DNA from: Henricia sp. BOLD:AAB3569
Taxonomy: Eukaryota > Echinodermata > Asteroidea > Spinulosida > Echinasteridae
Assembly: GCA_037783545.1 (NCBI GenBank)
Contig: JBBELK010000450.1
Coordinates: forward strand, 62,001 to 126,000
DNA: 64,000 bases
Direction of reading: 5' to 3'
Under the pieces are notes generated by a model. The model did not search any database, was not told where the DNA came from, and saw only the letters and a list, made by a program, of their open reading frames with translations. The position numbers were made by a program, and so were the translations under genes. Below, one piece after another: positions 16,601 to 46,640 of this stretch; the stretch's first letter is position 1, and each line of letters starts with the position of its first letter.

Positions 16601-19600
16601 CAAAATCTGTTAGACCAATAGGAAACGAGGTCAAAGGTCAAGGGGTGTGCGCATCTCAAAGACCTTTGTTAGTCATCGTATATGCCGAAGGAATCAAGAT
16701 CGTAGGTCAAACGGTTGATTTTTTATTGATTTTCCAATATTTCATTACGTAATCATCTTGTCGCTAGAGGGCGCTATTTCGTACGATGACGTCATCACTT
16801 ATATTTTTGGAAAGCTTAAGGGCCTCTGATAATAACACCATTGAGCCCATCTCAATACCTCCTACCACTTTCAAACTAAGGGCCACTTCCGGTTTCGACC
16901 GGAAGTGAGCAAGGTCAAAGGTCACAAAAATATTTTTTAGATACCCCACCCTAGTCGAAGTGTAACACAATTGACTTTGTCCAAATATCTTGCACCACTT
17001 TCAAATGGCAAGGCAAAATCTGTTTGACCAATAGGAAACGAGGTCAAAGGTCAAGGGGTGTGCGCATCTCAAAGACCTTTGTTAGTCATCGTATATGCCG
17101 AAGGAATCAAGATCGTAGGTCAAACGGTTGATTTTTTATTGATTTTTGAATATTTAATTTATTAAACTTCATACCCCTTTAATCTGACACGTGATGACGT
17201 CATCATGACGTCATTAGTACTGTGCACAACTTCACATAGTGACCAATGTCCATGTGAAGTTTGAAGTCAATCATCAATGTGCAAGTGTCCGAAATAGCGT
17301 CTGAAAAAAATGGAAGAAGGAAAAGAATAAAAAAAAAAATAACTAGAAATGTGTTCGTTGTAAACGAACACATGGCTGTTCCCCTCCTTTTTATAAACAT
17401 ATATGGTGTTCGGGATGACCTTTGTTAGTGATCGTATATGAAGAAATCACGATCGTACGTCAAACGGTTGAGTTTTTATCGATTTTTAAATATTGAATAT
17501 TATTACATGCCCCTTTAATCTGACATGTAGGGAAGGTCAAAGGTGTTGCTATATGTTTGGATACCCCACCCTAGTCGAAGTGTAACACAGTTGACCCCAT
17601 CGTGATATATTGTACCCCTTTCAAATGGCAAGGCAAAATCTGTTTGACCAATAGGAAACGAGGTCAAAGGTCAAGCCATGTGCGCATCTTAAAGACATTT
17701 GTTAGTGATCGTATATGCAGAAGGAATCAAATTTGTAGGTCAAACGGTTGATTTTTTATTGATTTTTGAATATTTAATTACGTAATCATCTTGTCGCTAG
17801 AGGGCGCTATTTCGTACGATGACGTCATCACTTATATTTTTGGAAAGCTTAAGGGCCTCTGGTAATAACACCATTGACCCCATCTCAATACCTCCTACCA
17901 CTTTCAAACTAAGGGCCACTTCCGGTTTCGACCGGAAGTGAGCAAGGTCAAAGGTCACGGCCATATTTTTTGGATACACCACCCTAGGTCCAAGTGTAAT
18001 ACAGTTGACCACATCCAGATATCTTGTACCACTTTCAAATGGCAAGGCAAAATCTGTTAGACCAATAGGAAACGAGGTCAAAGGTCAAGCCCTGTGCGGA
18101 TCTTAAAGACATTTGTTAGTGATCGTATATGCCACAGGAATCAAGATCGTAGGTCAAACAGTTGATTTTTTATTGATTTTTGAATATTTAATTACGTAAT
18201 AATCTTGTCGGTAGAGGGCGCTATTTCGTACGATGACGTCATCACTTATATTTTTGGAAAGCTTAAGGGCCTCTGGTAATAACACCATTGACCCCATCTC
18301 AATACCTCCTACCACTTTCAAACTAAGGGCCACTTCCGGTTTCGACCGGAAGTGAGCAAGGTCAAAGGTCACAAAAATATTTTTTAGATACCCCACCCTA
18401 GTCGAAGTGTAACACAAGTGACTTTGTCCAAATATCTTGCACCACTTTCAAATGGCAAGGCAAAATCTGTTTGACCAATAGGAAACGAGGTCAAAGGTCA
18501 AGGGGTGTGCGCATCTCAAAGACCTTTGTTAGTCATCGTATATGCCGAAGGAATCAAGATCGTAGGTCAAACGGTTGATTTTTTATTGATTTTTGAATAT
18601 TTAATTTATTAAACTTCATACCCCTTTAATCTGACACGTGATGACGTCATCATGACGTCATTAGTACTGTGCACAACTTCACATAGTGACCAATGTCCAT
18701 GTGAAGTTTGAAGTCAATCATGAATGTGCAAGTGCCCGAAATAGCATCTGAAAAAAGTGGAAGAAGGAAAAGAAAAAATAAAATAAAAATAAAAAAAATA
18801 TATATGGTGTTCGGGATGACCTTTGTTAGTGATCGTATATGAATAAATCACGATCGTAGGTCAAACGGTTGAGTTTTTATCTATTTTTAAATATTGAATA
18901 TTATTACATGCCCCTTTAATCTGACATGTAGGGAAAGTCAAAGGTGTTGCTATATGTTTGGATACCCCACCCTAGTCGAAGTGTAACACAGTTGACCCCA
19001 TCGTGGTATATTGTACCCCTTTCAAATGGCAAGGCAAAATCTGTTTGACCAATAGGAAACGAGGTCAAAGGTCAAGCCATGTGCGCATCTTAAAGACATT
19101 TGTTAATGATCGTATATGCAGAAGGAATCAAATTCGTAGGTCAAACGGTAGATTTTATATTGATTTTTGAATATTTAATTACGTAATCATCTTGTCGCTA
19201 GAGGGCGCTATTTCGTACGATGACGTCATTACTTATATTTAATAAAAAAAACCAGACCTGTGTTCGTTCTTGACAACGAACACATGGCTGTTCCCCTCCT
19301 TTTTATAAACATATATGGTGTTCGGGATGACCTTTGTTAGTGATCGTATATGAAGAAATCACGATCGTAGGTCAAACGGTTGAGTTTTTATCGATTGTTA
19401 AATATTGAATATTATTACATGCCCCTTTAATCTGACATGTAGGGAAGGTCAAAGGTCACGGCCATATTTTTTGGATACACCACCCTAGGTCGAAGTGTAA
19501 TACAGTTGACCACATGCAGATATCTTGTACCACTTTCAAATGGAAAGGCAAAATCTGTTATACCAATAGGAAACGAGGTCAAAGGTCACGACCATATTTT

Positions 19601-22600
19601 TTGGATACACCACCCTAGGTCCAAGTGTAATACAGTTGACCACATGCAGATATCTTGTACCACTTTCAAATGGCAAGGCAAAATCTGTTAGACCAATAGG
19701 AAACGAGGTCAAAGGACACGACCATATTTTTTGGATACACCACCCTAGGTCCAAGTGTAATACAGTTGACCACATGCAGATATCTTGTACCACTTTCAAA
19801 TGGCAAGGCAAAATGTGTTAGACCAATAGGAAACGAGGTCAAAGGTCACGACCATATTTTTGGATACACCACCCTAGGTCTAAGTGTAATACAGTTGACC
19901 CCATCGTGGTATATTGTACCCCTTTCAAATGGCAAGGCAAAATCTGTTTGACCAATAGGAAACGAGGTCAAAGGTCAAGCCATGTGCGCATCTTAAAGAC
20001 ATTTGTTAGTGATCGTATATGCAGAAGGAATCAAATTTGTAGGTCAAACGGTAGATTTTTTATTGTTTTTTGAATATTTAATTACGTAATCATCTTGTCG
20101 CTAGAGGGCGCTATTTCCTACGATGACGTCATCACTTATATTTTTGGAAAGCTTAAGGGCCTCTGGTAATAACACCATTGACCCCATCTCAATACCTCCT
20201 TTCACTTTCAAACTAAGGGCCACTTCCGGTTTCGACCGGAAGTGAGCAAGGTCAAAGGTCACGGCCATATTTTTTGGATACACCACCCTAGGTCCAAGTG
20301 TAATACAGTTGACCACATCCAGATATCTTGTACCACTTTCAAATGGCAAGGCAAAATCTGTTAGACCAATAGGAAACGAGGTCAAAGGTCAAGCCCTGTG
20401 CGCATCTTAAAGACATTTGTTAGTGATCGTATATGCCACAGGAATCAAGATCGTAGGTCAAACAGTTGATTTTTTATTGATTTTTGAATATTTAATTACG
20501 TAATCATCTTGTCGGTAGAGGGCGCTATTTCGTACGATGACGTCATCACTTATATTTTTGGAAAGCTTAAGGGCCTCTGGTAATAACACCATTGACCCCA
20601 TCTCAATACCTCCTTTCACTTTCAAACTAAGGGCCACTTCCGGTTTCGACCGGAAGTGAGCAAGGTCAAAGGTCACAAAAATATTTTTTAGATACCCCAC
20701 CCTAGTCGAAGTGTAACACAAGTGACTTTGTCCAAATATCTTGCACCACTTTCAAATGGCAAGGCAAAATCTGTTAGACCAATAGGAAACGAGGTCAAAG
20801 GTCAAGGGGTGTGCGCATCTCAAAGACCTTTGTTAGTCATCGTATATGCCGAAGGAATCAAGATCGTAGGTCAAACGGTTGATTTTTTATTGATTTTTGA
20901 ATATTTAATTTATTAAACTTCATGCCCCTTTAATCTGACACGTGATGACGTCATCATGACGTAATTAGTACTGTGCACTACTTCACATAGTGACCAATGT
21001 CCATGTGAAGTTTGAAGTCAATCATCAATGTGCAAGTGCCCGAAATAGCGTCTGAAAAAAATGGAAGAAGGAAAAGAATAAACTAGAAATGTGTTCGTTG
21101 AAAACGAACACATGGCTGTTCCCCTCCTTTTTATAAACATATGTGGTGTTCGGGATGACCTTTGTTAGTGATTGTTTATGAAGAAATCACGATCGTAGGT
21201 CAAACGGTTGAGTTTTTATCTATTTTTAAATATTGAATATTATTACATGCCCCTTTAATCTGACATGTAGGGAAAGTCAAAGGTGTTGCTATATGTTTGG
21301 ATACCCCACCCTAGTCGAAGTGTAACACAGTTGACCCCATCGTGGTATATTGTACCCCTTTCAAATGGCAAGGCAAAATCTGTTAGACCAATAGGAAACG
21401 AGGTCAAAGGTCAAGGGGTGTGCGCATCTCAAAGACCTTTGTTAGTCATCGTATATGCCGAAGGAATCAAGATCGTAGGTCAAACGGTTGATTTTTTATT
21501 GATTTTCCAATATTTCATTACGTAATCATCTTGTCGCTAGAGGGCGCTATTTCGTACGATGACGTCATCACTTATATTTTTGGAAAGCTTAAGGGCCTCT
21601 GATAATAACACCATTGAGCCCATCTCAATACCTCCTACCACTTTCAAACTAAGGGCCACTTCCGGTTTCGACCGGAAGTGAGCAAGGTCAAAGGTCACAA
21701 AAATATTTTTTAGATACCCCACCCTAGTCGAAGTGTAACACAAGTGACTTTGTCCAAATATCTTGCACCACTTTCAAATGGCAAGGCAAAATCTGTTTGA
21801 CCAATAGGAAACGAGGTCAAAGGTCAAGGGGTGTGCGCATCTCAAAGACCTTTGTTAGTCATCGTATATGCCGAAGGAATCAAGATCGTAGGTCAAACGG
21901 TTGATTTTTTATTGATTTTTGAATATTTAATTTATTAAACTTCATACCCCTTTAATCTGACACGTGATGACGTCATCATGACGTCATTAGTACTGTGCAC
22001 AACTTCACATAGTGACCAATGTCCATGTGAAGTTTGAAGTCAATCATGAATGTGCAAGTGCCCGAAAAAGCGTCTGAAAAAAGTGGAAGAAGGAAAAGAA
22101 AAAAAAAAGAAAAAAAAAAAAAAAAAAAAAAATCTTAACGAAAACAAAGGCTGTTCCCAACCGTATGGGAACAGCCAAAAAAAAATAAAAAAAAAAATAA
22201 AAAAAAAAAAAATCTTAACGAAAACAAAGGCTGTTCCAACTCGAGTCGGAACAGCCAACTAGACCTGTGTTCGTTCTTGACAACGAACACATGGCTGTTC
22301 CCCTCCTTTTTATAAACATATATGGTGTTCGGGATGACCTTTGTTAGTGATCGTATATGAAGAAATCACGATCGTATGTCAAACGGTCGAGTTTTTATCG
22401 ATTTTTAAATATCGAATTTTATTACATGCCCCTTTAATCTGACATGTAGGGAAGGTCAAAGGTGTTGATATATGTTTGGATACCCCACCCTAGTCGAAGT
22501 GTAACACAGTTGACCCCATCGTGATATATTGTACCCCTTTCAAATGGCAAGGCAAAATCTGTTTGACCAATAGGAAACGAGGTCAAAGGTCAAGCCATGT

Positions 22601-25600
22601 GCGCATCTTAAAGACATTTGTTAGTGATCGTATATGCAGAAGGAATCATATTTGTAGGTCAAACGGTAGATTTTTTATTGATTTTTAAATATTTAATTAC
22701 GTAATCATCTTGTCGGTAGAGGGCGCTATTTCGTACGATGACGTCATCACTTATATTTTTGGAAAGCTTAAGGGCCTCTGGTAATAACACCATTGACCCC
22801 ATCTCAATACCTCCTTTCACTTTCAAACTAAGGGCCATTTCCGGTTTCGACCGGAAGTGAGCAAGGTCAAAGGTCACGACCATATTTTTTAGATACCCCA
22901 CCCTAGTCGAAGTGTAACACAAGTGACTTTGTCCAAATATCTTGCACCACTTTCAAATGGCAAGGCAAAATCTGTTTGACCAATAGGAAACGAGGTCAAA
23001 GGTCAAGGGGTGTGCGCATCTCAAAGACCTTTGTTAGTCATCGTATATGCCGAAGGAATCAAGATCGTAGGTCAAACGGTTGATTTGTTATTGATTTTTG
23101 AATATTTAATTTATTAAACTTCATGCCCCTTTAATCTGACACGTGATGACGTCATCATGACGTCATTAGTACTGTGCACAACTTCACATAGTGACCAATG
23201 TCCATGTGAAGTTTGAAGTCAATCATCAATGTGCAAGTGTCCGAAATAGCGTCTGAAAAAAGTGGAAGAAGTAAAAGAATTAAAAAAAAAAACACATGGC
23301 TGTTCCCCTCCTTTTTATAAACATATATTGTGTTCAGGATGACCTTTGTTAGTGATCGTATATGAAGAAATCACGATCGTAGGTCAAACGGTTGAGTTTT
23401 TATCGATTTTTAAATATTGAATATTATTACATGCCCCTTTAATCTGACATGTACATGTCAAAGGTGTTGCTATATGTTTGGATACCCCACCCTAGTCGAA
23501 GTGTAACACAGTTGACCCCATCGTGATATATTGTACCCCTTTCAAATGGCAAGGCAAAATCTGTTAGACCAATAGGAAACGAGGTCAAAGGTCACGACCA
23601 TATTTTTTGGATACACCACCCTAGGTCCAAGTGTAATACAGTTGACCACATGCAGATATATTGTACCACTTTCAAATGGCAAGGCAAAATCTGTTAGACC
23701 AATAGGAAACGAGGTCAAAGGTCACGACCATATTTTTTGGATACACCACCCTAGGTCCAAGTGTAATACAGTTGACCACATGCAGATATATTGTACCACT
23801 TTCAAATGGAAAGGCAAAATCTGTTAGACCAATAGGAAACGAGGTCAAAGGTCACGACCATATTTTTTGGATACACCACCCTAGGTCCAAGTGTAATACA
23901 GTTGACCACATCCAGATATCTTGTACCACTTTCAAATGGCAAGGCAAAATCTGTTTGACTAATAGGAAACGAGGTCCAAGGTCAAGGGGTGTGCGCATCT
24001 CAAAGACCCTTGTTAGTCTTCGTATATGGCGAAAGAATCAAGATCGTAGGTCAAACGGTTGATTTTTTTAAGGTTTTTGGATATTTAATTGATTAAACTT
24101 CATGCCCCTTTAATCTGACACGTGATGACGTCATCATGACGTCATTAGTACTGTGCACAACTTAACATAGTGATCAATGTCCATGTGAAGTTTGAAGTCA
24201 ACTATCAATGTGCAATGTTCCTGTTTCCTTGGAGTGCACAGTCAATAATACGCCTGTGTATACGCGAAATAATCATTCTCCAGTTTCCTCGCAGTGCACA
24301 TTCAATAGGCCATTGCCTGTGTACAAACAAAAGACGTATTATCCCGTTTCCTCAAAGTACACAGTCAATGGGCCATTGCCTGTGTACAACCAAAATACGT
24401 ATTTTCATGTTTCCTCGCAGTGCACAGTCAATAGGCCATTGCCTGTGTACAAACAAAATACGTATTATCCCGTTTCCTCGAAGTACACAGTCAATGGGCC
24501 ATTGCCTGTGTACAACCAAAATACGTATTTTCATGTTTCCTCGAAGTGCACAGTCAATAGGCCATTGCCTGTGTACAAGTGAAATACTCAATTTCGCGTT
24601 TCCCTATTAGTAGTGCACAGTCTATATAGCCCAATGCCGGTTTCAACCGGAAGTGAGCAAGGTCAAAGGTCACGGCCATATTTTTTGGATACACCACCCT
24701 AGGTCCAAGTGTAATACAGTTGACCACATCCAGATATCTTGTACCACTTTCAAATGGCAAGGCAAAATATGTTAGACCAATAGGAAACGAGGTCAAAGGT
24801 CAAGCCCTGTGCGCATCTTAAAGACATTTGTTAGTGATCGTATATGCCACAGGAATCAAGATCGTAGGTCAAACAGTTGATTTTTTATTGATTTTTGAAT
24901 ATTTAATTACGTAATCATCTTGTCGGTAGAGGGCGCTATTTCGTACGATGACGTCATCACTTATATTTTTGGAAAGCTTAAGGGCCTCTGGTAATAACAC
25001 CATTGACCCCATCTCAATACCTCCTTTCACTTTCAAACTAAGGGCCACTTCCCGTTTCGACCGGAAGTGAGCAAGGTCAAAGGTCACCAACATATTTTTT
25101 AGATACCCCACCCTAGTCGAAGTGTAACACAAGTGACTTTGTCCAAATATCTTGCACCACTTTCAAATGGCAAGGCAAAATCTGTTTGACCAATAGGAAA
25201 CGAGGTCAAAGGTCAAGGGGTGTGCGCATCTCAAAGACCTTTGTTAGTCATCGTATATGCCGAAGGAATCAAGATCGTAGGTCAAACGGTTGATTTGTTA
25301 TTGATTTTTGAATATTTAATTTATTAAACTTCATGCCCCTTTAATCTGACACGTGATGACGTCATCATGACGTCATTAGTACTGTGCACAACTTCACATA
25401 GTGACCAATGTCCATGTGAAGTTTGAAGTCAATCATCAATGTGCAAGTGTCCGAAATAGCGTCTGAAAAAAGTGGAAGAAGTAAAAGAATAAAAAAAAAA
25501 AAAATAAAAAAAACCGTAACGAAAACTAGAAATGTGTTCGTTGAAAACGAACACATGGCTGTTCCCCTCCTTTTTATAAACATATGTGGTGTTCGGGATG

Positions 25601-28600
25601 ACCTTTGTTAGTGATTGTATATGAATAAATCACGATCGTATGTCAAACGGTTGAGTTTTTATCGATTTTTAAATATTGAATGTTATTACATGCCACTTTA
25701 ATCTGACATGTAGGGAAGGTCAAAGGTGTTGCTATATGTTTGGATACCCCACCCTAGTCGAAGTGTAACACAGTTGACCCCATCGTGATATATTGTACCC
25801 CTTTCAAATGGCAAGGCAAAATCTGTTTGACCAATAGGAAACGAGGTCAAAGGTCAAGCCATGTGCGCATCTTAAAGACATTTGTTGGTGATCGTATATG
25901 CAGAAGGAATCAAATTCGTAGGTTAAACGGTAGATTTTTTATTGATTTTTGAATATTTAATTACGTAATCATCTTGTCGCTAGAGGGCGCTATTTCGTAC
26001 GATGACGTCATCACTTATATTTTTGGAAAGCTTAAGGGCCTCTGATAATAACACCATTGACCCCATCTCAATACCTCCTACCACTTTCAAACTAAGGGCC
26101 ACTTCCGGTTTCGACCGGAAGTGAGCAAGATCAAAGGTCACGACCATATTTTTTGGATACACCACCCTAGGTCCAAGTGTAATACAGTTGACCACATCCA
26201 GATATCTTGTACCACTTTCAAATGGCAAGGCAAAATCTGTTTGACCAATAGGAAACGAGGTCAAAGGTCAAGGGGTGTGCGCATCTCAAAGACCCTTGTT
26301 AATCATCGTATATGGCAAATGAATCAAGATCGTAGGTCAAACGGTTGATTTGTTATTGATTTTCCAATATTTCATTACGTAATCATCTTGTCGCTAGAGG
26401 GCGCTATTTCGTACGATGACGTCATCACTTATATTTTTTGAAAGCTTGAGGGCCTCTGGTAATAACACCATTGACCCCATCTCAATACCTCCTTTCACTT
26501 TCAAACTAAGGGCCACTTCCGGTTTCGACCGGAAGTGAGCAAGGTCAAAGGTCACAAAAATATTTTTTAGATACCCCACCCTAGTCGAAGTGTAACACAA
26601 GTGACTTTGTCCAAATATCTTGCACCACTTTCAAATGGCAAGGCAAAATCTGTTTGACCAATAGGAAACGAGGTCAAAGGTCAAGGGGTGTGCGCATCTC
26701 AAAGACCTTTGTTAGTCATCGTATATGCCGAAGGAATCAAGATCGTAGGTCAAACGGTTGATTTTTTATTGATTTTTGAATATTTAATTTATTAAACTTC
26801 ATACCCCTTTAATCTGACACGTGATGACGTCATCATGACGTCATTAGTACTGTGCACAACTTCACATAGTGACCAATGTCCATGTCAAGTTTGAAGTCAA
26901 TCATCAATGTGCAAGTGTCCGAAATAGCGTCTGGAAAAAATGGAAGAAGGAAAAGAAAAAAAAACTAGAAATGTGTTCGTTGAAAACGAACACATGGCTG
27001 TTCCCCTCCTTTTTATAAACATATGTGGTCTTCGGGATGACCTTTGTTAGTGATTGTATATGAAGAAATCACGATCGTATGTCAAACGGTTGAGTTTTTA
27101 TCGATTTTTAAATATTGAATATTATTACATGCCCCTTTAATCTGACATGTAGGGAAGGTCAAAGGTGTTGCTATATGTTTGGATACCCCACCCTAGTCGA
27201 AGTGTAACACAGTTGACCCCATCGTGATATATTGTACCCCTTTCAAATGGCAAGGCAAAATCTGTTTGACCAATAGGAAACGAGGTCAAAGGTCAAGCCA
27301 TGTGCGCATCTTAAAGACATTTGTTAGTGATCGTATATGCAGAAGGAATCAAATTTGTAGGTCAAACGGTAGATTTTTTATTGATTTTTGAATATTTAAT
27401 TACGTAATCATCTTGTCGCTAGAGGGCGCTATTTCGTACGATGACGTCATCACTTATATTTTTGGAAAGCTTAAGGGCCTCTGGTAATAACACCATTGAC
27501 CCTATCTCAATACCTCCTACCACTTTCAAACTAAGGGCAACTTCCGGTTTCGACCGGAAGTGAGCAAGGTCAAAGGTCACGGCCATATTTTTTGGATACA
27601 CCACCCTAGGTCCAAGTGTAATACAGTTGACCACATCCAGATATCTTGTACCACTTTCAAATGGCAAGGCAAAATCTGTTAGACCAATAGGAAACGAGGT
27701 CAAAGGTCAAGCCCTGTGCGCATCTTAAAGACATTTGTTAGTGATCGTATATGCCACAGGAATCAAGATCGTAGGTCAAACAGTTGATTTTTTATTGATT
27801 TTTGAATATTTAATTACGTAATCATCTTGTCGGTAGAGGGCGCTATTTCGTAAGATGACGTCATCACTTATATTTTCGGAAAGCTTAAGGGCCTCTGGTA
27901 ATAACACCATTGACCCTATCTCAATACCTCCTACCACTTTCAAACTAAGGGCCACTTCCGGTTTCGACCGGAAGTGAGCAAGGTCAAAGGTCACGACCAT
28001 ATTTTTTGGATACACCACCCTAGGTCCAAGTGTAATACAGTTGACCACATCCAGATATCTTGTACCACTTTTAAATGTCAAGGCAAAATCTGTTTGACCA
28101 ATAGGAAACGAGGTACAATGTCAAGGGGTGTGCGCATCTCAAAGACCCTTGTTAGTCATCGTATATGGCGAAGGAATCAAGATCGTAGGTCAAACGGTTG
28201 ATTTTGTATTGATTTTTTAAGGTCTAATTTATTAAACTTCATACCCCTTTAATCTGACACGTGATGACGTCACCATAACGTAATCAGTTAAATACCTTTG
28301 TTAGTTATTGTATATGGCGCAGGAATCAAGATAGTAGCTAAAATGGTTGATTTCTTACGGATTTTTTATATCCCATTTATTTTATTTGATGCCCCTTTAA
28401 TCTGACACGTGATGTCGTCATTATGACGTCATTAGTGAAAGACCTTTGTTAGTGATCATATTTGGCGCAGGAATCAAGATCGTAGCTCAAACGGTTGATT
28501 TTTTATTGATTTTTTATATTTCATTTATCTGTTTTCATGCCCCTTTAATCTGACATGTGATGACGTCGTCCTGACGTCATCATTTAAAGACATTTATTAG

Positions 28601-31600
28601 TGATCGTATATGGCGCAGGAATGAAGATCATAGCTCAAACGGTTGATTTGTTATTGATTTTTGAACATTTAATTTTATCAAATACCCCTTTAATCTAACA
28701 CATTGAGCAAGGTCAAAGGTCGCCACCATATTTTTTGGATACCCCACCCTAGTCGAAGTGTAACACAATTGACCCCGTCCAAATATCTTGTACCACTTTC
28801 AAATGACAAGGCAAAATCTGTTTGACCAATAGGAAACAAGGTCAAAGGTCAAGGCGTGTGCGCATCTTAAAGACATTTGTTAGTCATCCTATATGGCGAA
28901 GGAATCAAGTTCGTATGTCAAACGGTTGAATTTTTATTGATTTTTGAATATTTAATTTATTAAACTTCATACCCCTTTAATCTGACACGTGATGACGTCA
29001 TCATGACGTCATTAGTACTGTGCACAACTTCACATAGTGACCAATGTCCATGTGAAGTTTGAAGTAAATCATCAATGTGCAAGTGTCCGAAAAGCGTCTG
29101 AAAAAAGTGGAAGAAGTAAAAGAATAAAAATAAAAAAAAACTAGAAATGTGTTCGTTGAAAACGAACACATGGCTGTTCCCCTCCTTTTTATAAACATAT
29201 GTGGTGTTCGGGATGACCTTTGTTAGTGATTGTTTATGAAGAAATCACGATCGTAGGTCAAACGGTTGAGTTTTTATCTATTTTTAAATATTGAATATTA
29301 TTACATGCCCCTTTAATCTGACATGTAGGGAAAGTCAAAGGTGTTGCTATATGTTTGGATACCCCACCCTAGTCGAAGTGTAACACAGTTGACCCCATCG
29401 TGGTATATTGTACCCCTTTCAAATGGCAAGGCAAAATCTGTTAGACCAATAGGAAACGAGGTCAAAGGTCAAGGGGTGTGCGCATCTCAAAGACCTTTGT
29501 TAGTCATCGTATATGCCGAAGGAATCAAGATCGTAGGTCAAACGGTTGATTTTTTATTGATTTTCCAATATTTCATTACGTAATCATCTTGTCGCTAGAG
29601 GGCGCTATTTCGTACGATGACGTCATCACTTATATTTTTGGAAAGCTTAAGGGCCTCTGATAATAACACCATTGAGCCCATCTCAATACCTCCTACCACT
29701 TTCAAACTAAGGGCCACTTCCGGTTTCGACCGGAAGTGAGCAAGGTCAAAGGTCACAAAAATATTTTTTAGATACCCCACCCTAGTCGAAGTGTAACACA
29801 AGTGACTTTGTCCAAATATCTTGCACCACTTTCAAATGGCAAGGCAAAATCTGTTTGACCAATAGGAAACGAGGTCAAAGGTCAAGGGGTGTGCGCATCT
29901 CAAAGACCTTTGTTAGTCATCGTATATGCCGAAGGAATCAAGATCGTAGGTCAAACGGTTGATTTTTTATTGATTTTTGAATATTTAATTTATTAAACTT
30001 CATACCCCTTTAATCTGACACGTGATGACGTCATCATGACGTCATTAGTACTGTGCACAACTTCACATAGTGACCAATGTCCATGTGAAGTTTGAAGTCA
30101 ATCATGAATGTGCAAGTGCCCGAAAAAGCGTCTGAAAAAAGTGGAAGAAGGAAAAGAAAAAAAAAAATAAAAAAAAAAAAAAAAAAAAAAATCTTAACGA
30201 AAACAAAGGCTGTTCCCAACCGTATGGGAACAGCCAAAAAAAAAAAAAAAAAAGGAATAAAAATCGTAACGAAAACAAAGGCTGTTCCGACCCGAATCGG
30301 AACAGCCAAAAAAATAAAAAATAAAAAAATCTTAACGAAAACAAAGGCTGTTCCGACCGTATCGGAACAGCCAAAAAGGCTGTTCCGACCCGAATCGGAA
30401 CAGCCAAAAAAAAAAAAATCTTAACGAAAACAAAGGCTGTTCCCAACCGTGTTGGAACAGCCAACAAAGGCTGTTCCGACCCGAATCGGAACAGCCAATA
30501 AAACTGCAGTTACTGGAGTTGCTGAGCTCAACGTGTACATGTACATACATGCACACGTACGTACGTACACATGTACGTCTACGCACATAAACATTCCTGC
30601 AGGCCTAGCCTGCAGAATGCATATTGTACATGCGAGGCAAAGGGCGCACGCGCGGTCGGCCAGGTCAAGAGTTCAGTTGCTGCTAAAATAGGAATGGAGA
30701 ATTGAGAATCAGCAAGAGGGCTCACTTCAAAAACCTAATCCTTGTACTGACGAGCCAGCCCCTTTAATGTCCAATTGGTGCGAAAATTTGACCGATATTT
30801 CGTTCTGAAGCCAATAAACATAACTATTCTGTTTTGTTTTCTTCTTTTCAATCTTCGACTCAGGATTTTTCTCACGTCTTTACTTCCTACGGCAATTGTT
30901 GGACGTTTAACTCAGGGAAGACGGGGCCGATCTTGAAGCAGGGCCGTCCGGGTAGCAATAATGGCGTTCATCTACTTATCGATATTCAACAGGTATATAT
31001 ACACTATTATGCAGATTATACGGACTTCGTCAATAAAAGGTCCTTTGGACTTTGCAGAGTTTAACACAATTGTCAAGAATGGAGACAACAAAGTTATGAC
31101 GTCATTTTGATGAGGTCACATGGGCCGCATCTGATCGATTTTTATCAGTTATTATACACATGCAGATACGAACTTAATTCCTCAATAAAAGGTAATGTGT
31201 TGTCATGAATGGAAACAACAAAACACCAAGGATTCGCCGACAAAGTAATGACATCATTTTAATGTAATTTTCATATCTTATATCAGTTTGGGATGAATTG
31301 TTATCGTCCAATTTTCCCTCATCGCGGCCATAATACACCAATCCGCCAACTAAGGTCTCCTCCCTGCATATCCGCCATAGCTGGGGCGTCCAGTGCATGG
31401 GCTGTGCGTTTTGTGTTGCTGTTAGAACGAAAAGCGCTCATCCATTATATGCACGAACGAGCCTCCTTCGCGTATACGCGACGCGCCCGCCTTTGCGTAC
31501 ACGCGACGCGCCCGCCTTCGCGCGCACACAACCCTACAAAGATGCGCAACTTGTTCGAAGTAAACAAATGCAGCTTCAGCAACAACAAAAACACACAGTT

Positions 31601-34600
31601 CATTCAGTGGAAGCCCCCCAGCTATGGCGGATGTACAGGGAAGAAGACCTTATTACCGGATTGGTGTATAGCTTTTATACCAAATTCAGATCAAACTTGG
31701 TTGGAAAAGCTTGGGAGGCCTCTGACATGGCCGTCTTTGCATGAACTAACCAGGGGCGGATCCAGGGGGCGTGGGGGCGCACGCCCCCCCCCCCCCCCCT
31801 TTTTCAAAAAAAATAAATTAAGAATCCATCTAGAATCCATCTAGAAGCCGTTAGGACTTCGCGCTCGCTATTTCATTGTCATCAGCATTTCATGCTTAAC
31901 AATTTCACGCCCGCCCCCCCCCCCCCCCCCCCCCCCCCCCTTTTCAAAATCCTGGATCCGCCCCTGCTAACAACAATCTACATGTAGTACTACATCTTTT
32001 TCTATGTCATGATTTTGCCAGAGTGAATACACAGAAACAACAAACCTGGAAGCTGGCTTAAGAGTGTTAATTCATGACCAAGCAACGCCGCCCATGGTCG
32101 CCTCATATGGACTGGCAATCTCGCCTGGAGTACACGCCTTCATGGGAGTTCAGAAACACCAGGTGCACATGGTCATTGTACTTGTTTTCATATGAAACAT
32201 CTAAACTCATCCCTTAACCACAAACTGACCAATGGAAGTCATTCAAGTAGAATAACCAAGACTTAAAAAGTCAAGCCACATACTGTTGGAATCGAACCCC
32301 AATCACAGTTTCTAAGGCAATGAAAGTACCACTTTTGATTATCGATAAACGGCTATTTTGTTGTACTAAAAACTGAACGATGACATAGCTTAGTAGTATA
32401 ATAACAACACATAGGCATATTTGCAAAGTTTCTTGCTTGTTTTATATAATTGCAAATTTCAGTATATTACCAACGTATTGCCGTCTGTGCATGTATCTTG
32501 CTCCGTTTATGTTGCTAAACAAAACTTCAGCGCTTCGTTTAAAAATGTATTTCTCCACAAACCAATTTTTACATTTTTAGTACCTGAATTTGGAGCCACC
32601 GTACGGAAAATGTGATGCCTCAAAGAAACTAGAGAGATACGATAAGTACACATTGGAGGGATGCAACATGGAATGCAGTGTAGAACGGGTAGTAGAAAGG
32701 TGTCAGTGCCGGATCGTTGGGTAAGAGGTTCTTCTTTCGTATGATCCCGTCAAGGAATCTGGTTGGTGAGAAATAAGTCGTTGCCCTGTAGTACCCAGGA
32801 GGTTAGTTTTAGAGATGGGAGGAAACCTTCACACACAGACATGTGGAGAAACTCAAGAATTCAAGCAGGGACAGAGAGTACAATATGTAAACGACCGCGT
32901 CTCTTAATTCGCTGTCTTGACTGACAGTTTTCTCTTGTAAACGTGCATGGCTTTTGTGATTCTTTCTCATTTTCATTTTGTATCATTATTTCATTTTTCA
33001 GACAACCAGGGGACGAAGTTGAATGCTCACCCCGCGAAACGTTTGAGTGTGCGAACGAGGTGCTAGGTAAAACAAGTTTAAAATGGGAGACCCCCACCAT
33101 TGGCGTATAGCAAAGGGACCTTAGTATGGGGCCAGCTAGGGGCGGGTGGGGAGCTCGGAGGTGCATGGAAGTCATTTTGTCGATTTTACTGTGTCGATCA
33201 TGACGTCAACCTATTAATTCCTTTAAGGCATGCATGGGAGCACATTTTGTGGTTATTATATGACTAATTTATTTTAATAACAAATTTTCCCAACAAGACG
33301 GCAGATATGGCGCTCTATACGTTGGCCTCATACAGTTTTCGTGGCCCATAGTCCATATTTTTTTTTAGGTACATGTATCAGTGGAAGTCACATGCTAACA
33401 TAAGCAGATCTCTTCTTGCAGCTTTAGTGAATAGATATTACAGTATTTTTTTTGTACATTTCGATATGTTTTGTCCAGACGGCCTAGTGACAGGCACCGT
33501 CGAACCCTGCAACTGCCCCGTGCCCTGTAACTACAGCACTTTCATCGCCACTCTCTCTACTGCGAGTATACCAAATGCGAAAATCGTTCCTCTACTGCAA
33601 GAATTGGTAACGATTGAAGAAGCGGCTAGAGGGCACAATGTTAGCTACAATGAGTCTGAAGAAGAGGAATCTGTCCGACACATAAAGCAAGTTAATATAC
33701 CCTGTTCACGAGTTTGAACGGTTTAATCGGACCTCCTGAATCACTTCGATTGAACGCAAACTGCTGATTGGCTACTTATGCGCTACTTAAACTCCCGGCT
33801 ACTTATGCGTTACAAGCATTGTCTGCGGCTCGAGGCTTGGAACGCATACGTAAACTGGCCCTTTTCCAATCAGCCGTTTGCATTATAAAAACATTGTAAC
33901 CCACGCCCGCCGCATTGGGGGGTTGGTGGACGAATTAAAATCTGTAACGAATAAGCAGATAGGTACAAACTTGGTGAGTTTCACATGCACATTTACTTGT
34001 CTGCTGCTCAATAAGGAATGATACAAACTCATATCATTAATGCTACTAATACTGGTACTAAGCAAAGAAATCAATAAACTATCATGTAAAAGGAAAATAA
34101 ACACATCGTTCTTTCACATACATGTCAATCATGATTAACTAAATCTATGTCAAGACAGTGGAATTTACCCTAAAACCCATTAACAAAGTCCACAGTCTTA
34201 AATCATTTAACTTCAAATGATTTAACTCTCAGTTTGGTTTTCAGTAGTCGAAATTTAAAATGTAACATAGGAATTAACGAAGATAATAAAAGATAAAATA
34301 AGCAAAGTGATGAACACAAATTACAAGGAGCAATAAAATAAACAAGTCATGGTCATGGTAAAATAAACTCTTGTCAATCCTTATTCACAAAATCTGCACT
34401 TGTGGGAACACAACTTTGTATGTACCGAATCCATATGACCTTTTTTACTTCTCGCCTTTTCTGGAATTGACATGAACTTCAGTGTCAGCACATTGGAAAT
34501 TGTGCATAAAAGTTTGGCATAGCTGGGCATAATTAGGTGGCTAGAACAAAGGAGTGCCTGTACACTAGCTACTGCAGTAGCCAAGTTGGCTAAGCACACC

Positions 34601-41700: not shown

Positions 41701-42165
41701 TGGTAAATTTGCAAAGGTACATTTGAAAAAAAGTCACATTTTGGACAACAGGGTAAATATCTGTTTTTAACTTCTTTATTAAATATTTGATTAATTTTGC
41801 AGATTTTAATAACCAAAATGTGCGCTTGTGCCATTTGTAAATATACAATAAGCTAGCCTTATGCGGTTACATTTCATATTTTGTTTAGTACAAACCGTAG
41901 TCAGTTTCGAAATGCGCGTTATTTGCGAAAATATACCAAATCAGGAAATTAAATATATATATAAGCAGGTAAAGCGCGCTTCATCTTGATTTGTGATTGG
42001 TCGTCTTTGCGCGTGCGCATTGTGTGTTTTATATTTTAAAATTGGCGAAGCCCTTTGCTTTAGTCAATGTACTTTATTCACCTTTGGATATGTTCGACAC
42101 GCACGGCCGGGTTGCAAATGTCAATGCAAAATATACGCACTTACTAAACAAAATAATAATGATAA
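41701..42165. other. ASIC 3' flank and left side of the array insertion site
   Basis: No further gene is seen. From about 41966 to 42165 the sequence (GGTAAAGCGCGCTTCATCTT ... CAATGCAAAATATACGCACT) is a paralogue of 46412-46570. No canonical AATAAA is evident close behind the stop; AATAAG near 41843 is a weak possibility. Confidence 0.5.
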
Positions 42166-45100
42166 CTAGAAATGTGTTCGTTGAAAACGAACACATGGCT
42201 GTTCCCCTCCTTTTTATAAACATATGTGGTGTTCGGGATGACCTTTGTTAGTGATTGTATATGAAGAAATCACGATCGTATGTCAAACGGTTGAGTTTTT
42301 ATCGATTTTTAAATATTGAATATTATTACATGCCACTTTAATCTGACATGTAGGGAAGGTCAAAGGTGTTGCTATATGTTTGGATACCCCACCCTAGTCG
42401 AAGTGTAACACAGTTGACCCCATCGTGATATATTGTACCCCTTTCAAATGGCAAGGCAAAATCTGTTTGACCAATAGGAAACGAGGTCAAAGGTCAAGCC
42501 ATGTGCGCATCTTAAAGACATTTGTTAGTGATCGTATATGCAGAAGGAATCAAATTTGTAGGTCAAACGGTAGATTTTTTATTGTTTTTTGAATATTTAA
42601 TTACGTAATCATCTTGTCGCTAGAGGGCGCTATTTCCTACGATGACGTCATCACTTATATTTTTGGAAAGCTTAAGGGCCTCTGGTAATAACACCATTGA
42701 CCCTATCTCAATACCTCCTTTCACTTTCAAACTAAGGGCCACTTCCGGTTTCGACCGGAAGTGAGCAAGGTCAAAGGTCACGGCCATATTTTTTGGATAC
42801 ACCACCCTAGGTCCAAGTGTAATACAGTTGACCACATCCAGATATCTTGTACCACTTTCAAATGGCAAGGCAAAATCTGTTAGACCAATAGGAAACGAGG
42901 TCAAAGGTCAAGCCCTGTGCGCATCTTAAAGACATTTGTTAGTGATCGTATATGCCACAGGAATCAAGATCGTAGGTCAAACAGTTGATTTTTTATTGAT
43001 TTTTGAATATTTAATTACGTAATCATCTTGTCGGTAGAGGGCGCTATTTCGTACGATGACGTCATCACTTATATTTTTGGAAAGCTTAAGGGCCTCTGGT
43101 AATAACACCATTGACCCCATCTCAATACCTCCTTTCACTTTCAAACTAAGGGCAACTTCCGGTTTCGACCGGAAGTGAGCAAGGTCAAAGGTCACAAAAA
43201 TATTTTTTAGATACCCCACCCTAGTCGAAGTGTAACACAAGTGACTTTGTCCAAATATCTTGCACCACTTTCAAATGGCAAGGCAAAATCTGTTTGACCA
43301 ATAGGAAACGAGGTCAAAGGTCAAGGGGTGTGCGCATCTCAAAGACCTTTGTTAGTCATCGTATATGCCGAAGGAATCAAGATCGTAGGTCAAACGGTTG
43401 ATTTTTTATTGATTTTTGAATATTTAATTTATTAAACTTCATACCCCTTTAATCTGACACGTGATGACGTCATCATGACGTCATTAGTACTGTGCACTAA
43501 TTCACATAGTGACCAATGTCCATGTAAAGTTTGAAGTCAATCATCAATGTGCAAGTGTCCGAAATAGCGTCTGAAAAAAGTGGAAGAAGTAAAAGAATAA
43601 AAAACTAGAAATGTGTTCGTTGAAAACGAACACATGGCTGTTCCCCTCCTTTTTATAAACATATATGGTGTTCGGGATGACCTTTGTTAGTGATCGTATA
43701 TGAATAAATCACGATCGTAGGTCAAACGGTTGAGTTTTTATCTATTTTTAAATATTGAATATTATTACATGCCCCTTTAATCTGACATGTAGGGAAAGTC
43801 AAAGGTGTTGCTATATGTTTGGATACCCCACCCTAGTCGAAGTGTAACACAGTTGACCCCATCGTGGTATATTGTACCCCTTTCAAATGGCAAGGCAAAA
43901 TCTGTTTGACCAATAGGAAACGAGGTCAAAGGTCAAGCCATGTGCGCATCTTAAAGACATTTGTTAATGATCGTATATGCAGAAGGAATCAAATTCGTAG
44001 GTCAAACGGTAGATTTTATATTGATTTTTGAATATTTAATTACGTAATCATCTTGTCGCTAGAGGGCGCTATTTCGTACGATGACGTTATTACTTATATT
44101 TTTGGAAAGCTTAAGGGCCTCTGATAATAACACCATTGACCCCATCTCAATACCTCCTACCACTTTCAAACTAAGGGCCACTTCCGGTTTCGACCGGAAG
44201 TGAGCAAGGTCAAAGGTCACGGCCATATTTTTTGGATACACCACCCTAGGTCGAAGTGTAATACAGTTGACCACATGCAGATATCTTGTACCACTTTCAA
44301 ATGGCAAGGCAAAATCTGTTAGACCAATAGGAAACGAGGTCAAAGGTCAAGGGGTGTGCGCATCTCAAAGACCTTTGTTAGTCATCGTATATGCCGAAGG
44401 AATCAAGATCGTAGGTCAAACGGTTGATTTTTTATTGATTTTCCAATATTTCATTACGTAATCATCTTGTCGCTAGAGGGCGCTATTTCGTACGATGACG
44501 TCATCACTTATATTTTTGGAAAGCTTAAGGGCCTCTGGTAATAACACCATTGACCCCATCTCAATACCTCCTTTCACTTTCAAACTAAGGGCCACTTCCG
44601 GTTTCGACCGGAAGTGAGCAAGGTCAAAGGTCACAAAAATATTTTTTAGATACCCCACCCTAGTCGAAGTGTAACACAAGTGACTTTGTCCAAATATCTT
44701 GCACCACTTTCAAATGGAAAGGCAAAATCTGTTTGACCAATAGGAAACGAGGTCAAAGGTCAAGGGGTGTGCGCATCTCAAAGACCTTTGTTAGTCATCG
44801 TATATGCCGAAGGAATCAAGATCGTAGGTCAAACGGTTGATTTTATATTGATTTTTGAATATTTAATTTATTAAACTTCATGCCCCTTTAATCTGACACG
44901 TGATTACGTCATCATGACGTCATTAGTACTGTGCACAACTTCACATAGTGACTAATGTCCATGTGAAGTTTGAAGTCAATCATGAATGTGCAAGTGCCCG
45001 AAATAGCGTCTGAAAAAAGTGGAAGAAGGAAAAGAAAAAAAAACTAGAAATGTGTTCGTTGAAAACGAACACATGGCTGTTCCCCTCCTTTTTATAAACA

Positions 45101-45242
45101 TATAAAAAAAATAAAAATAAAAATAAAAAAAATCTTAACGAAAACAAAGGCTGTTCCCAACCGTGTTGGAACAGCCAAAAAAAAAAAAAATAAAAAATCT
45201 TAACGAAAACAAAGGCTGTTCCGACCGTATCGGAACAGCCAA
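42166..45242. mobile_element. 3.08-kb copy of the tandem-array element
   Basis: Heads CTAGAAATGTGTTCGTTG lie at 42166, 43605 and 45044, so two complete units of exactly 1439 bp are followed by a truncated third and two poly-A-linked GGCTGTTCC/GGAACAGCC hairpins (about 45150 and 45214). The flanks join seamlessly in the paralogous site at 46412-46640, which lacks the array. The insertion is therefore precise, from the head to the last hairpin. About ten AGGTCAAAGGTCA sites and four TAGAGGGCGC cores are present. Confidence 0.88.
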
Positions 45243-45383
45243 TAACCACGTGACCGGGTAGAATTCTGGCCGTCGTGGCTGCCTTTTACCGATCCCCATA
45301 TTTTCGCAATAATTGATACCATATTGATACCAATTGATACATAAGCATGCAAATTTATGCCTAAGTATGCAAATAGATGCCTC
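45243..45383. other. Right side of the array insertion site
   Basis: ACCACGTGACCGGGTAGAAT and TTTTACCGATCCCCATATTT match 46570-46640. At 45345-45380 the sequence GCATGCAAATTTATGCCTAA matches 52005-52040 near the minisatellite in the SRA1 intron. Confidence 0.6.
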
Positions 45384-46293
45384 CGGGTCTACGTTCACGG
45401 GTCTAACCAACCCGACCGTACTGCGTTGCTCAAGTTTAGCGAGCAACACTGCCGGACGGCCGGGCGAGCCAGTGCAACAAGGAAGATAGCTTTGTCCGTG
45501 GACATTGTGTGTTTGCCTCACATTGTTTGTCTGCTGATCGATCGATCAGTGGGTAGGCTAAGTTGCATTGCCCGTGTTTCGGTGAAAGGATTTAAAAAAT
45601 TAATTTACACAAGCGAACGAATTTAGAAAGCTTACGTGTCCCTGTAACGAAAAATATCAAAAACTTAAATTTCCGACGTCGGGAATTGGAGATACAAGCC
45701 TTTTTCTTGAAACGTGCTTCACATGTTGTACATGTGCGCGTACGCTCATATGTACATAGTATGTGTACAGTGTACACATGTACGCGCACATGTAGATTTA
45801 CGTCATAACCCTGTCGATTAAATGACCTGCCAGCCATTTAATCATTTCTTGTTTTTAATCGACTGGCATTAATCCTTGACGGATTTTTACGTTCTTGGTA
45901 CCAATTGAAAGCTAATAACTTTTTCTATTCTAGAAAAATACCTATTTAACTTAAAAAAAAAAATTGTACGCCCAAATCGGCCTAAACACGGGCAGTGCAA
46001 CTTTAAGTGCTAGAAACGTTGCGACATGCACTGTCGGTCCAGTGTGCATGTACTCTGGGTACCAGACCGACACAGAGCTGCAGTGAATTATGGAAATTAG
46101 ATGACGTCACGCATTTCACCGTGTCGAAAAAAGGTGTGCCAGGAATTCGCTCGGTATTTTGCGAGCGATTTATACGGAATAGTAAAGACTGTCTTTTGGA
46201 CTGTATTTCAGGTGCGCCCTGGCGGCCAATGGTGAATAGTCTATGTACGTCGTGTATCGCGCGCCAAAAGGCAGTCTTGCCGAAAGACTAGGA
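45384..46293. repeat. Left arm of a 10.5-kb-spaced inverted duplication
   Basis: Two blocks, 45384-45470 and 46003-46293, occur inverted and in inverted order at 57663-57753 and 56773-57068. The second block contains GAATTCGCTCGGTATTTTGC and GGCGCGCGATAC-type sequence. The stretch between the blocks differs: a hairpin (45727-45793) here, a foldback (57068-57522) at the other arm. Confidence 0.7.
45727..45793. repeat. Hairpin of alternating purine-pyrimidine sequence
   Basis: ACATGTGCGCGTACGCTCAT and its near complement pair around a TACATAGTATGTGTA centre. Confidence 0.65.
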
Positions 46294-46411
46294 AAATAAC
46301 TGTCCCAGGATACAGTGAAAGTTACTTCACAATAGTTTTTGGGAGTGAGGTAATTTGAAAATATTTAGATTTTTCATAGACTAGCTAGCTGGTTCCCGTC
46401 CACATAAGGAC

Positions 46412-46640
46412 AGGTAAAGGGCGCTTCATCTTGATCTGTAATTGATCGTCTTTGCGCGTGCGCATTGTGTTTTTTTATATTTAATAATTGGATACGTCGA
46501 CACGCACGGCCGGGTTACAAATGTCAATGCAAAATCTGCGCACTTACTAAAACAAAAAAAATAATAATAACCACGTGACGGGCAGAATTCTGCCCGTCAT
46601 GGCTGCCCTCTACCGATCCCTATATTTTCGCAATAAGCGA
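46412..46640. other. Unfilled paralogue of the array insertion site
   Basis: The sequence continues from CACTTACTAAAACAAA through AATAATAATAACCACGTGAC without the array. The left half matches 41966-42165 and the right half matches 45243-45330. It carries a 22-bp palindrome (46577-46598, GACGGGCAGAATTCTGCCCG and on). The host sequence is thus itself a repeat, present at least twice. Confidence 0.82.

Follow-up and report, generated by a model that had tools for sequence, protein, structure and literature searches.

Helentron-associated elements of the HINE type (HINE-Mo of mites, DINE-1, Cg_HINE of oyster) are described, in the available parts of their accounts, as having no genes, an internal satellite and a habit of inserting into other repeats. 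A subterminal inverted repeat (subTIR) with an inverted partner lies 2 nt from the 5' end, a matching inverted repeat and a hairpin mark the 3' end, and insertion occurs at T-rich targets with no duplication (PMC4067079; PMC7492417). The excerpted descriptions give subTIRs of 12–15 bp (mites), 13 bp (DINE-1) and 11–12 bp (oyster) at 2–4 nt from the 5' end, and a 3' end in which the subTIR lies 38–60 nt and the palindrome 8–35 nt from the terminus. In Crassostrea gigas, satellite arrays lie between Helitron boxes, and the longest element-associated array in the portion consulted has 89 monomers (PMC8268682), by our own arithmetic ~15 kb if the satellite is CgiSat01 (164–166 bp). How satellites come to spread through genomes as blocks is still unsettled, with rolling-circle elements suspected of carrying them. 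We describe here a family of satellite-like arrays in the sea star Henricia sp. BOLD:AAB3569, found through a 64,000-nt stretch (C450:62001-126000, contig JBBELK010000450.1; "the window") of assembly GCA_037783545.1, which comprises 741 Mb in 2,104 contigs. A 3,077-bp array at 42166-45242 of the window has exact ends and interrupts a dispersed repeat. It and its relatives are very probably non-autonomous rolling-circle transposons of the Helitron/Helentron group, with a HINE-like architecture, extreme ends like those of proto-Helentrons, and termini that have been multiplied.

An array inserted in an interspersed repeat

The sequence-only reading of the window had claimed that the flanks of this array join directly at 46412-46640, and they do. 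With the array omitted, its left flank (41974-42165) and right flank (45243-45312), both on the plus strand, align together to the uninterrupted paralogous copy at 46412-46640 (plus strand). The junctions are sharp (...GATAA|CTAGAAATGTG...GGAACAGCCAA|TAACCACG), the right end of the array being GGAACAGCCAA. The empty stretch belongs to an interspersed repeat family with 1,105 candidate places in the assembly. All 40 places scored (the best 40 of 1,105, one being the query) span no fewer than 224 of the query's 229 bases in a single piece of 222–275 bp, and 13 of 13 copies (12 fetched, plus 46412-46640) run uninterrupted through the insertion site. Compared base by base, the host-repeat copy L054 differs from the joined flanks at the site by a single substitution, and hence nothing was duplicated there. 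An (A)TAA target duplication was considered and rejected, the TAA on both sides being a pre-existing microsatellite and L054 matching the joined flanks.

The uninterrupted host repeat is the ancestral state. The earlier reading had itself named the alternative, that 46412-46640 is the deletion product of a filled site, to which may be added the case of an ordinary satellite lying between two unrelated repeats. The copy at 46412 does carry a separate deletion, lacking ~40 bp of the left flank, but this change lies away from the insertion site. Since 13 of 13 copies are uninterrupted and L054 equals the joined flanks, 46412-46640 is not such a product; the 40 scored places, query included, are uninterrupted as well and the same ends recur at other loci, which leaves either explanation a negligible probability.

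Read on the minus strand, the array is a complete element with its 5' end at 45242, its 3' end at 42166 and termini in the order 5-5-3-3-3. The 5' TT (45241-45242) is followed by an outer terminal hairpin of loop type h2 (45214-45240) and an inner one of type h1 (45149-45176). A third 3' terminus at 45044-45104 belongs to a strongly shortened unit. Two body units of 1,439 bp follow, each with its own 3' terminus, at 43605-45043 and 42166-43604; they are 96.6% identical, and the latter contains ~2.5 copies of a 414-bp repeat. The outer 3' terminus (42166-42205) consists of the subterminal GGAACAGCC, an 11-bp hairpin and CTAG-3', after which host TTATC begins; folded as DNA it reaches -10.7 kcal/mol (z -6.1). 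No open reading frame of at least 120 residues (stop to stop) lies wholly within 42166-45242.

Termini and target site

On the minus strand the array begins with TTGGCTGTTCC and ends with CTAG, and the layout is TT-GGCTGTTCC-loop-GGAACAGCC at the 5' end and GGAACAGCC-hairpin-CTAG at the 3' end. The 5' subTIR is thus the hairpin-forming GGCTGTTCC(C), 9–10 bp long and 2 nt from the end. At the other end GGAACAGCC is followed by a stem of 11 bp (type A) or 10 bp (type B) and then 6–7 nt to the terminus, the subterminal repeat starting 40–43 nt and ending 31–34 nt from it. Two main types of 3' terminus, A (TTTCTAG) and B (GGTCTAG), occur together with a rarer type C, and the 5' hairpin loops fall into six types. 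As single-stranded DNA, four terminus stretches all fold strongly (z -4.2 to -6.5). Sites of the generic form hairpin-CTAG-T number 11 in the two arrays of the window and two elsewhere in it, against 0–3 when the window was shuffled ten times by mononucleotide and one strand was scanned each time.

Exact matches to the 3' terminus pattern, counted for both loops, number 2,810 across the assembly and those to the reversed pattern none, in support of the constant ends proposed for the family. When the pattern excluded the base that the array has before GGAACAGCC, 51 places were found, of which four were fetched: L031 and L034 carry terminus type C, and L032 and L033 are ordinary array pieces. 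In its 2 kb, L034 has no array but just an open frame of 168 residues, which by eye may be a hydrolase-like domain. At L042 (C70:1250900-1250067) two more hairpin-CTCTAG ends were noticed that are divergent and come with an exact and a near copy of TGACCTTTGACCT; related subfamilies therefore exist.

Insertion is at about TTW^TT. In 21 5' flanks, one of which (L025) sits inside another array, position -3 is T in all 21, -2 is T in 16, and -1 is A in 13 and T in 8. In the 3' flanks, +1 is T in 19/19 and +2 in 18/19. Positions +7 and +8 are also T in 17/19 each, against 34% T at +21 to +60; this signal is separate from the TTW^TT core, though T is frequent at the intervening positions too, and L020 and ASIC 12246, which account for two of the 19 rows, look array-internal. 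Base-by-base comparison found no duplication at the window site, at the C1018/C521 pair described below, or at L016 (159/160 identical, no gap), and the same was seen by eye where L038 was compared with the flank of L039. Treating the 5' TT as host sequence would misfit the empty sites.

Single-unit and compound elements

A search of the genome for the same ends yielded 16 complete elements of 990–16,978 bp, with the same two modules at their ends and differing host DNA outside. They were located via these ends, and the evidence for each is the abrupt change of flank there (for L037 the 3' flank is only 53 bases long and was judged by eye). The size range of at least 3–17 kb proposed from the window takes in both of its arrays and now widens to 0.99–16.98 kb. 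Seven complete elements have one 5' and one 3' end. The basic single-unit form consists of a 5' module, a T-run, a body of ~0.6 kb + n x 414 bp and a 3' module, 1.0–1.7 kb in all. The other nine are compound, with 2–11 5' ends and 2–9 3' ends: a run of 5' hairpins, mostly 50–80 bp apart, is followed by body units of ~611 + n x 414 bp, nearly every one of which has its own full 3' terminus. The termini run 5533 in L016 and 553533 in L023.

Across 35 loci, counted by loose matching and mostly picked by their ends, there are 137 5' ends and 134 3' ends; loci L009–L028 were picked by similarity to the tail of the window array, which biases the type frequencies. These loci hold 28 3'-to-5' junctions of at most 40 nt, 15 of them at distance 0, and 13 of the 15 read CTAG|TTGG letter for letter (the other two have a changed CTAG). 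The first 88 termini among the matches listed (contigs C1–C17, those on C19 being left out) form 25 clusters, eight of which are single termini. Seven of the eight isolated 3' termini have a 5' end 0.99–1.68 kb upstream (L035–L041). No 5' end was found within the ~2.1 kb fetched for L031, an isolated terminus of type C.

The second array of the window, here called the ASIC-locus element, occupies 13521-30498 on the minus strand (16,978 bp) and has eight 5' hairpins and nine 3' termini. An exact 3'|5' abutment lies inside it at 22254-22262 (CTAG|TTGG in the minus sense). The two window arrays had been said to share the same ends; they share the same terminus modules, but the end at 13521 is the variant CTAGACCTGTG (as on the plus strand) and not CTAGAAATGTG.

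Do arrays move as one piece?

Of ten elements of the family examined for empty sites, the window and ASIC-locus elements included, seven have an uninterrupted site. Apart from the window element and L038, the sites were sought with joined flanks of 80 + 80 bases (80 + 60 for L036). The joined flanks of L017 match across the junction at five places, with 100% identity over 161 bp at three; those of L016 match 23 places at 98–99% and four at 85%, those of L023 four places at 87–88%, and those of L041 one place at 89%. For the ASIC-locus element, 17 of 41 places among the matches listed match across the junction at 86–97%, and the empty site of L038 was recognised by eye in the flank of L039.

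The clearest case of a whole array present at one site and absent from its near-identical counterpart is a 4,027-bp, three-unit element at C1018:181477-185503. Once it is removed, C1018 aligns to C521 over 5,220 bp with six mismatches and no gap at the junction, the one gap being a 291-bp local-repeat difference elsewhere. Divergence is 2.5% between its first and second units and higher between either of these and the third; since the units are at least 2.5% apart, far more than the flanks, the array most simply arrived ready-made. Further support comes from the window itself. Its two-unit block recurs at C70 with 99.1% identity over 2,876 bp and no gaps, against 96.9–97.1% out of register; C70 is the closest of seven places scored (the best 7 of 1,592 candidates, one being the query). 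The 3' terminus at which the block stops is the same at C70 but the host DNA beyond it is not, and ahead of the block stands a 3' end belonging to another subfamily.

Several observations weigh against block movement, or against giving it a wide reach. The joined flanks of L012, L035 and L036 gave no empty site in the assembly, and the empty junction of the ASIC-locus element was seen by joined-flank match and not base by base. A two-unit block at C120 is uninformative, with 97.6% identity in register against 97.3 and 96.8% out of it. Of 83 pairs of neighbouring units, only two find their best matches side by side at another place (in shuffles, 0.54 on average and at most 4), and block inheritance is not general in the sample examined. 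C521 and C1018 may also be two haplotypes or a young duplication: a first far probe was ambiguous, matching C521 at 91–94% on the same strand but ~17 kb out of step, and a second fell in a high-copy repeat. The claim that the window array moved as one unit therefore finds its best support at C1018/C521 and in the C70 dimer rather than at the window site, and it has to be qualified in that arrays also change in place.

How arrays grow

Three routes to an array can be set beside one another. In one, the only insertion was that of an element with a single unit, from which the array grew where it stood by slippage and unequal crossing-over, never moving. Some such growth is evident: for 19 of 114 units (a sample equal to ~4% of all termini) the nearest relative lies within the same array, where shuffles give 4.0 on average and at most 15, and local duplication therefore also happens. 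L028 alternates units of 1,025 and 1,448 bp, and two of the ASIC-locus units are identical over the compared columns, a third differing from both by 0.7%. Yet median unit divergence within arrays (3.2%) nearly equals that between arrays (3.5%), the window dimer is found again as a dimer at C70, and at C1018 growth in place as the sole cause is contradicted by units at least 2.5% apart between flanks only 6 in 5,220 from the empty copy. As a full account of the arrays this route is improbable.

Self-nesting, in which a new copy lands in the T-run inside an older 5' end or at a boundary and the ends come to stack like brackets, is a serious contender that in our judgement falls a little short of an even chance. 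Both 5' boundaries and T-runs offer a TTW^TT-like target anew, the stacked 5' hairpins are of mixed types, and the ends nearly balance, both in the totals for the 35 loci (137 and 134, with the selection of loci already noted) and in the nine compound elements, where L016 and L023 have equal numbers of the two and another four differ by one. The surplus of three, four and eight 5' ends in L012, L022 and L024 would however need loss of bodies; among single-unit elements the type of hairpin does not go with the type of 3' end; and the C1018 array would need several hits at one spot within a divergence of 6 in 5,220. Rather unlikely, in our view, are rolling-circle concatemers, for which circles joined exactly 3'|5' would be copied repeatedly and only then inserted. 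The 15 of 28 close 3'-to-5' junctions at distance 0 are of the type published, in the part of the account available, for Helraiser circles (PMC4778049), but re-insertion at a regenerated target yields the same junction, a 5' end lies within 40 nt of only 28 of the 134 3' ends, and the other internal 3' ends inspected lead into a T-run and another body.

Mechanism and significance

In the mechanism that we propose, the 5' TT/hairpin end would be nicked by a Rep-helicase provided in trans, which would peel off one strand and stop at the hairpin-CTAG 3' end, and the copy would insert at about TTW^TT with no target duplication. Arrays are compound elements with both termini multiplied, and could be mobilised whole, from the outer 5' end, past internal 3' terminators, to the outer 3' end. 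They might grow or shrink as copies land in a T-run or at the boundary of older copies, through bypass of a 3' end or head-to-tail (circle) copying, and by unequal recombination between units; we infer the balance of these three routes, as we do the enzyme, the strand peeling and the terminator bypass. A bolder and more tentative idea, which we put forward as possible though open to considerable doubt, is an open-ended mobile satellite, in which transposition would no longer involve one element but whatever lies between an outer 5' end and an outer 3' end, so that arrays of up to 17 kb could assemble and travel through the genome. On this idea the 3' terminators would be bypassed very often, and the element's own ends and T-runs would be very good targets.

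Where two nearly identical sites differ by the presence of a diverged three-unit array, the arrival of an array already assembled becomes directly traceable. The order of the multiplied 5' and 3' ends is, in addition, a readable record of how an array was built.

Sequence motifs and neighbouring features

Perfect AGGTCAAAGGTCA motifs number 64 in the 20,055 bp of the window's two arrays, all on the plus strand, against two in the other 43,945 bp and none in 20 shuffles of the arrays. In conservation along the unit, its three AGGTCAAAGGTCA sites rank between the 82nd and 93rd percentiles. We take AGGTCAAAGGTCA to be a DR1 nuclear-receptor site. The majority sequence of the unit also contains the words TGACGTCA, CACGTG and CCGGAAGT, which presumably resemble CRE, E-box and ETS sites. 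HNF4 sites in Alu elements, as described in the excerpt available, are a published parallel to the AGGTCAAAGGTCA motifs (PMC3252374).

One window array probably lies near an exon of a channel gene, judging from an open frame at 33352-33717 with a weak match to PF00858, the amiloride-sensitive channel family (E 7.5e-4, 19.1 bits, cut-off 23.6). A Pfam search with four open reading frames of the window returned nothing at E 0.01. By eye, a 278-residue open frame at 8644-9480 resembles a Tc1/IS630-type transposase; it has no Pfam match. Within the 17-kb array, 24218-24578 is a 63/126-bp minisatellite, and similar repeat translations were seen by eye in L024.

Search for an autonomous partner

Proteins matching PF14214 (Rep) are abundant, with 150 of 150 scored places matching (the best 150 of 173 candidates), and among the matches listed ~50 of Helitron type lie in open frames of 3,000–4,100 residues, those on C921, C2094, C1685 and C1052 among them. 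No autonomous element with the family's ends was found: the 4–6 kb downstream of the C921, C2094, C1052 and C1685 Rep copies, stretches that may stop short of the true element ends, contain no such end, and the part of the C921 open frame inspected gave none either. Unrelated hairpins before CTAG, CTGG or CTGA occur at C1685 and C1052. One further candidate, C8:835859, on a contig with a Rep match, proved to be an ordinary array unit and was rejected. The oyster elements likewise have no assigned autonomous partner in the part of their account consulted.

Other observations on the Rep copies are that C921 and C2094 have a common 79-bp satellite downstream and that one long-Rep N-terminal stretch matches DUF6570 and Herpes_teg_N. 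The contigs C898 and C1007 carry the same series of Rep matches in the same order, offset by 35–41 kb, and from this series the assembly may hold haplotype or duplicate contigs.

Comparison with known systems

A terminal inverted repeat (DDE) transposon or a miniature inverted-repeat transposable element is ruled out by empty sites without target duplication. The sequence-only reading had instead suggested a Helentron affinity, and a HINE-type 3' end, T-rich targets and the lack of duplication uphold it; the 5' TT, the A/T^TT sites and the failure to find a partner with these ends qualify it. Of the features that define HINEs, the T-rich target without duplication is present, as are the matching 3' subTIR and palindrome, the latter slightly closer to the end than the published 8–35 nt. 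Some features count against a simple assignment: the 9–10 bp subTIR is shorter than those of published HINEs, the strict T^T insertion of Helentrons is not seen (the base before the 5' TT is A in 13/21 and T in 8/21), and the 5' end is TT rather than the Helitron TC, so that the canonical Helitron combination of TC and A^T is absent; no autonomous element with these ends was found in the stretches searched downstream of four Rep copies. Canonical Helitron features are seen in the 3' CTAG with its preceding hairpin; the target is A/T^T.

The extreme ends resemble those of proto-Helentron-Pi of Phytophthora, which has a 5' TT, a 3' CTAG and insertion between A and T without duplication; in the Henricia family the TT, the CTAG and the lack of duplication are all present, and insertion is A^T in 13/21 and T^T in 8/21. 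Proto-Helentron-Pi differs in being autonomous and ~14 kb long with several putative proteins, and the available part of its description does not mention a satellite (PMC4067079). Helitron tandem arrays and Helraiser circles have comparable exact head-to-tail junctions ending in CTAG, and the excerpts consulted report the Helraiser 3' hairpin as a leaky terminator, with ~11.7% of events capturing flanking DNA (PMC5876387; PMC4778049). Helraiser, however, starts with TC, and the Henricia arrays are non-coding and mostly without a 5' end between units.

An array so large had been thought unusual. Size alone is not new, long element-associated arrays having been published in oyster (PMC8268682, as far as its available part goes). 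Multiplication of both terminal modules was not found described in the portions consulted of the accounts of HINEs, oyster satellites and Helraiser, and neither was the movement of an array of several diverged units into a site with a nearly identical empty counterpart. Among the matches listed for literature on echinoderm satellites with Helitrons (one match, on a worm genome), on nested insertion and on DR1 in Helitrons, no account of these arrays was seen. In the oyster, which comes close in having satellite arrays between Helitron boxes, the boxes flank one array and the available description does not mention multiplied termini (PMC8268682), a distinction drawn from descriptions and not from sequences. 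The HINEs share the gene-free body, the internal satellite and the plan of the ends; unlike them, the Henricia family repeats both terminal modules, and nearly every unit has a 3' terminus.

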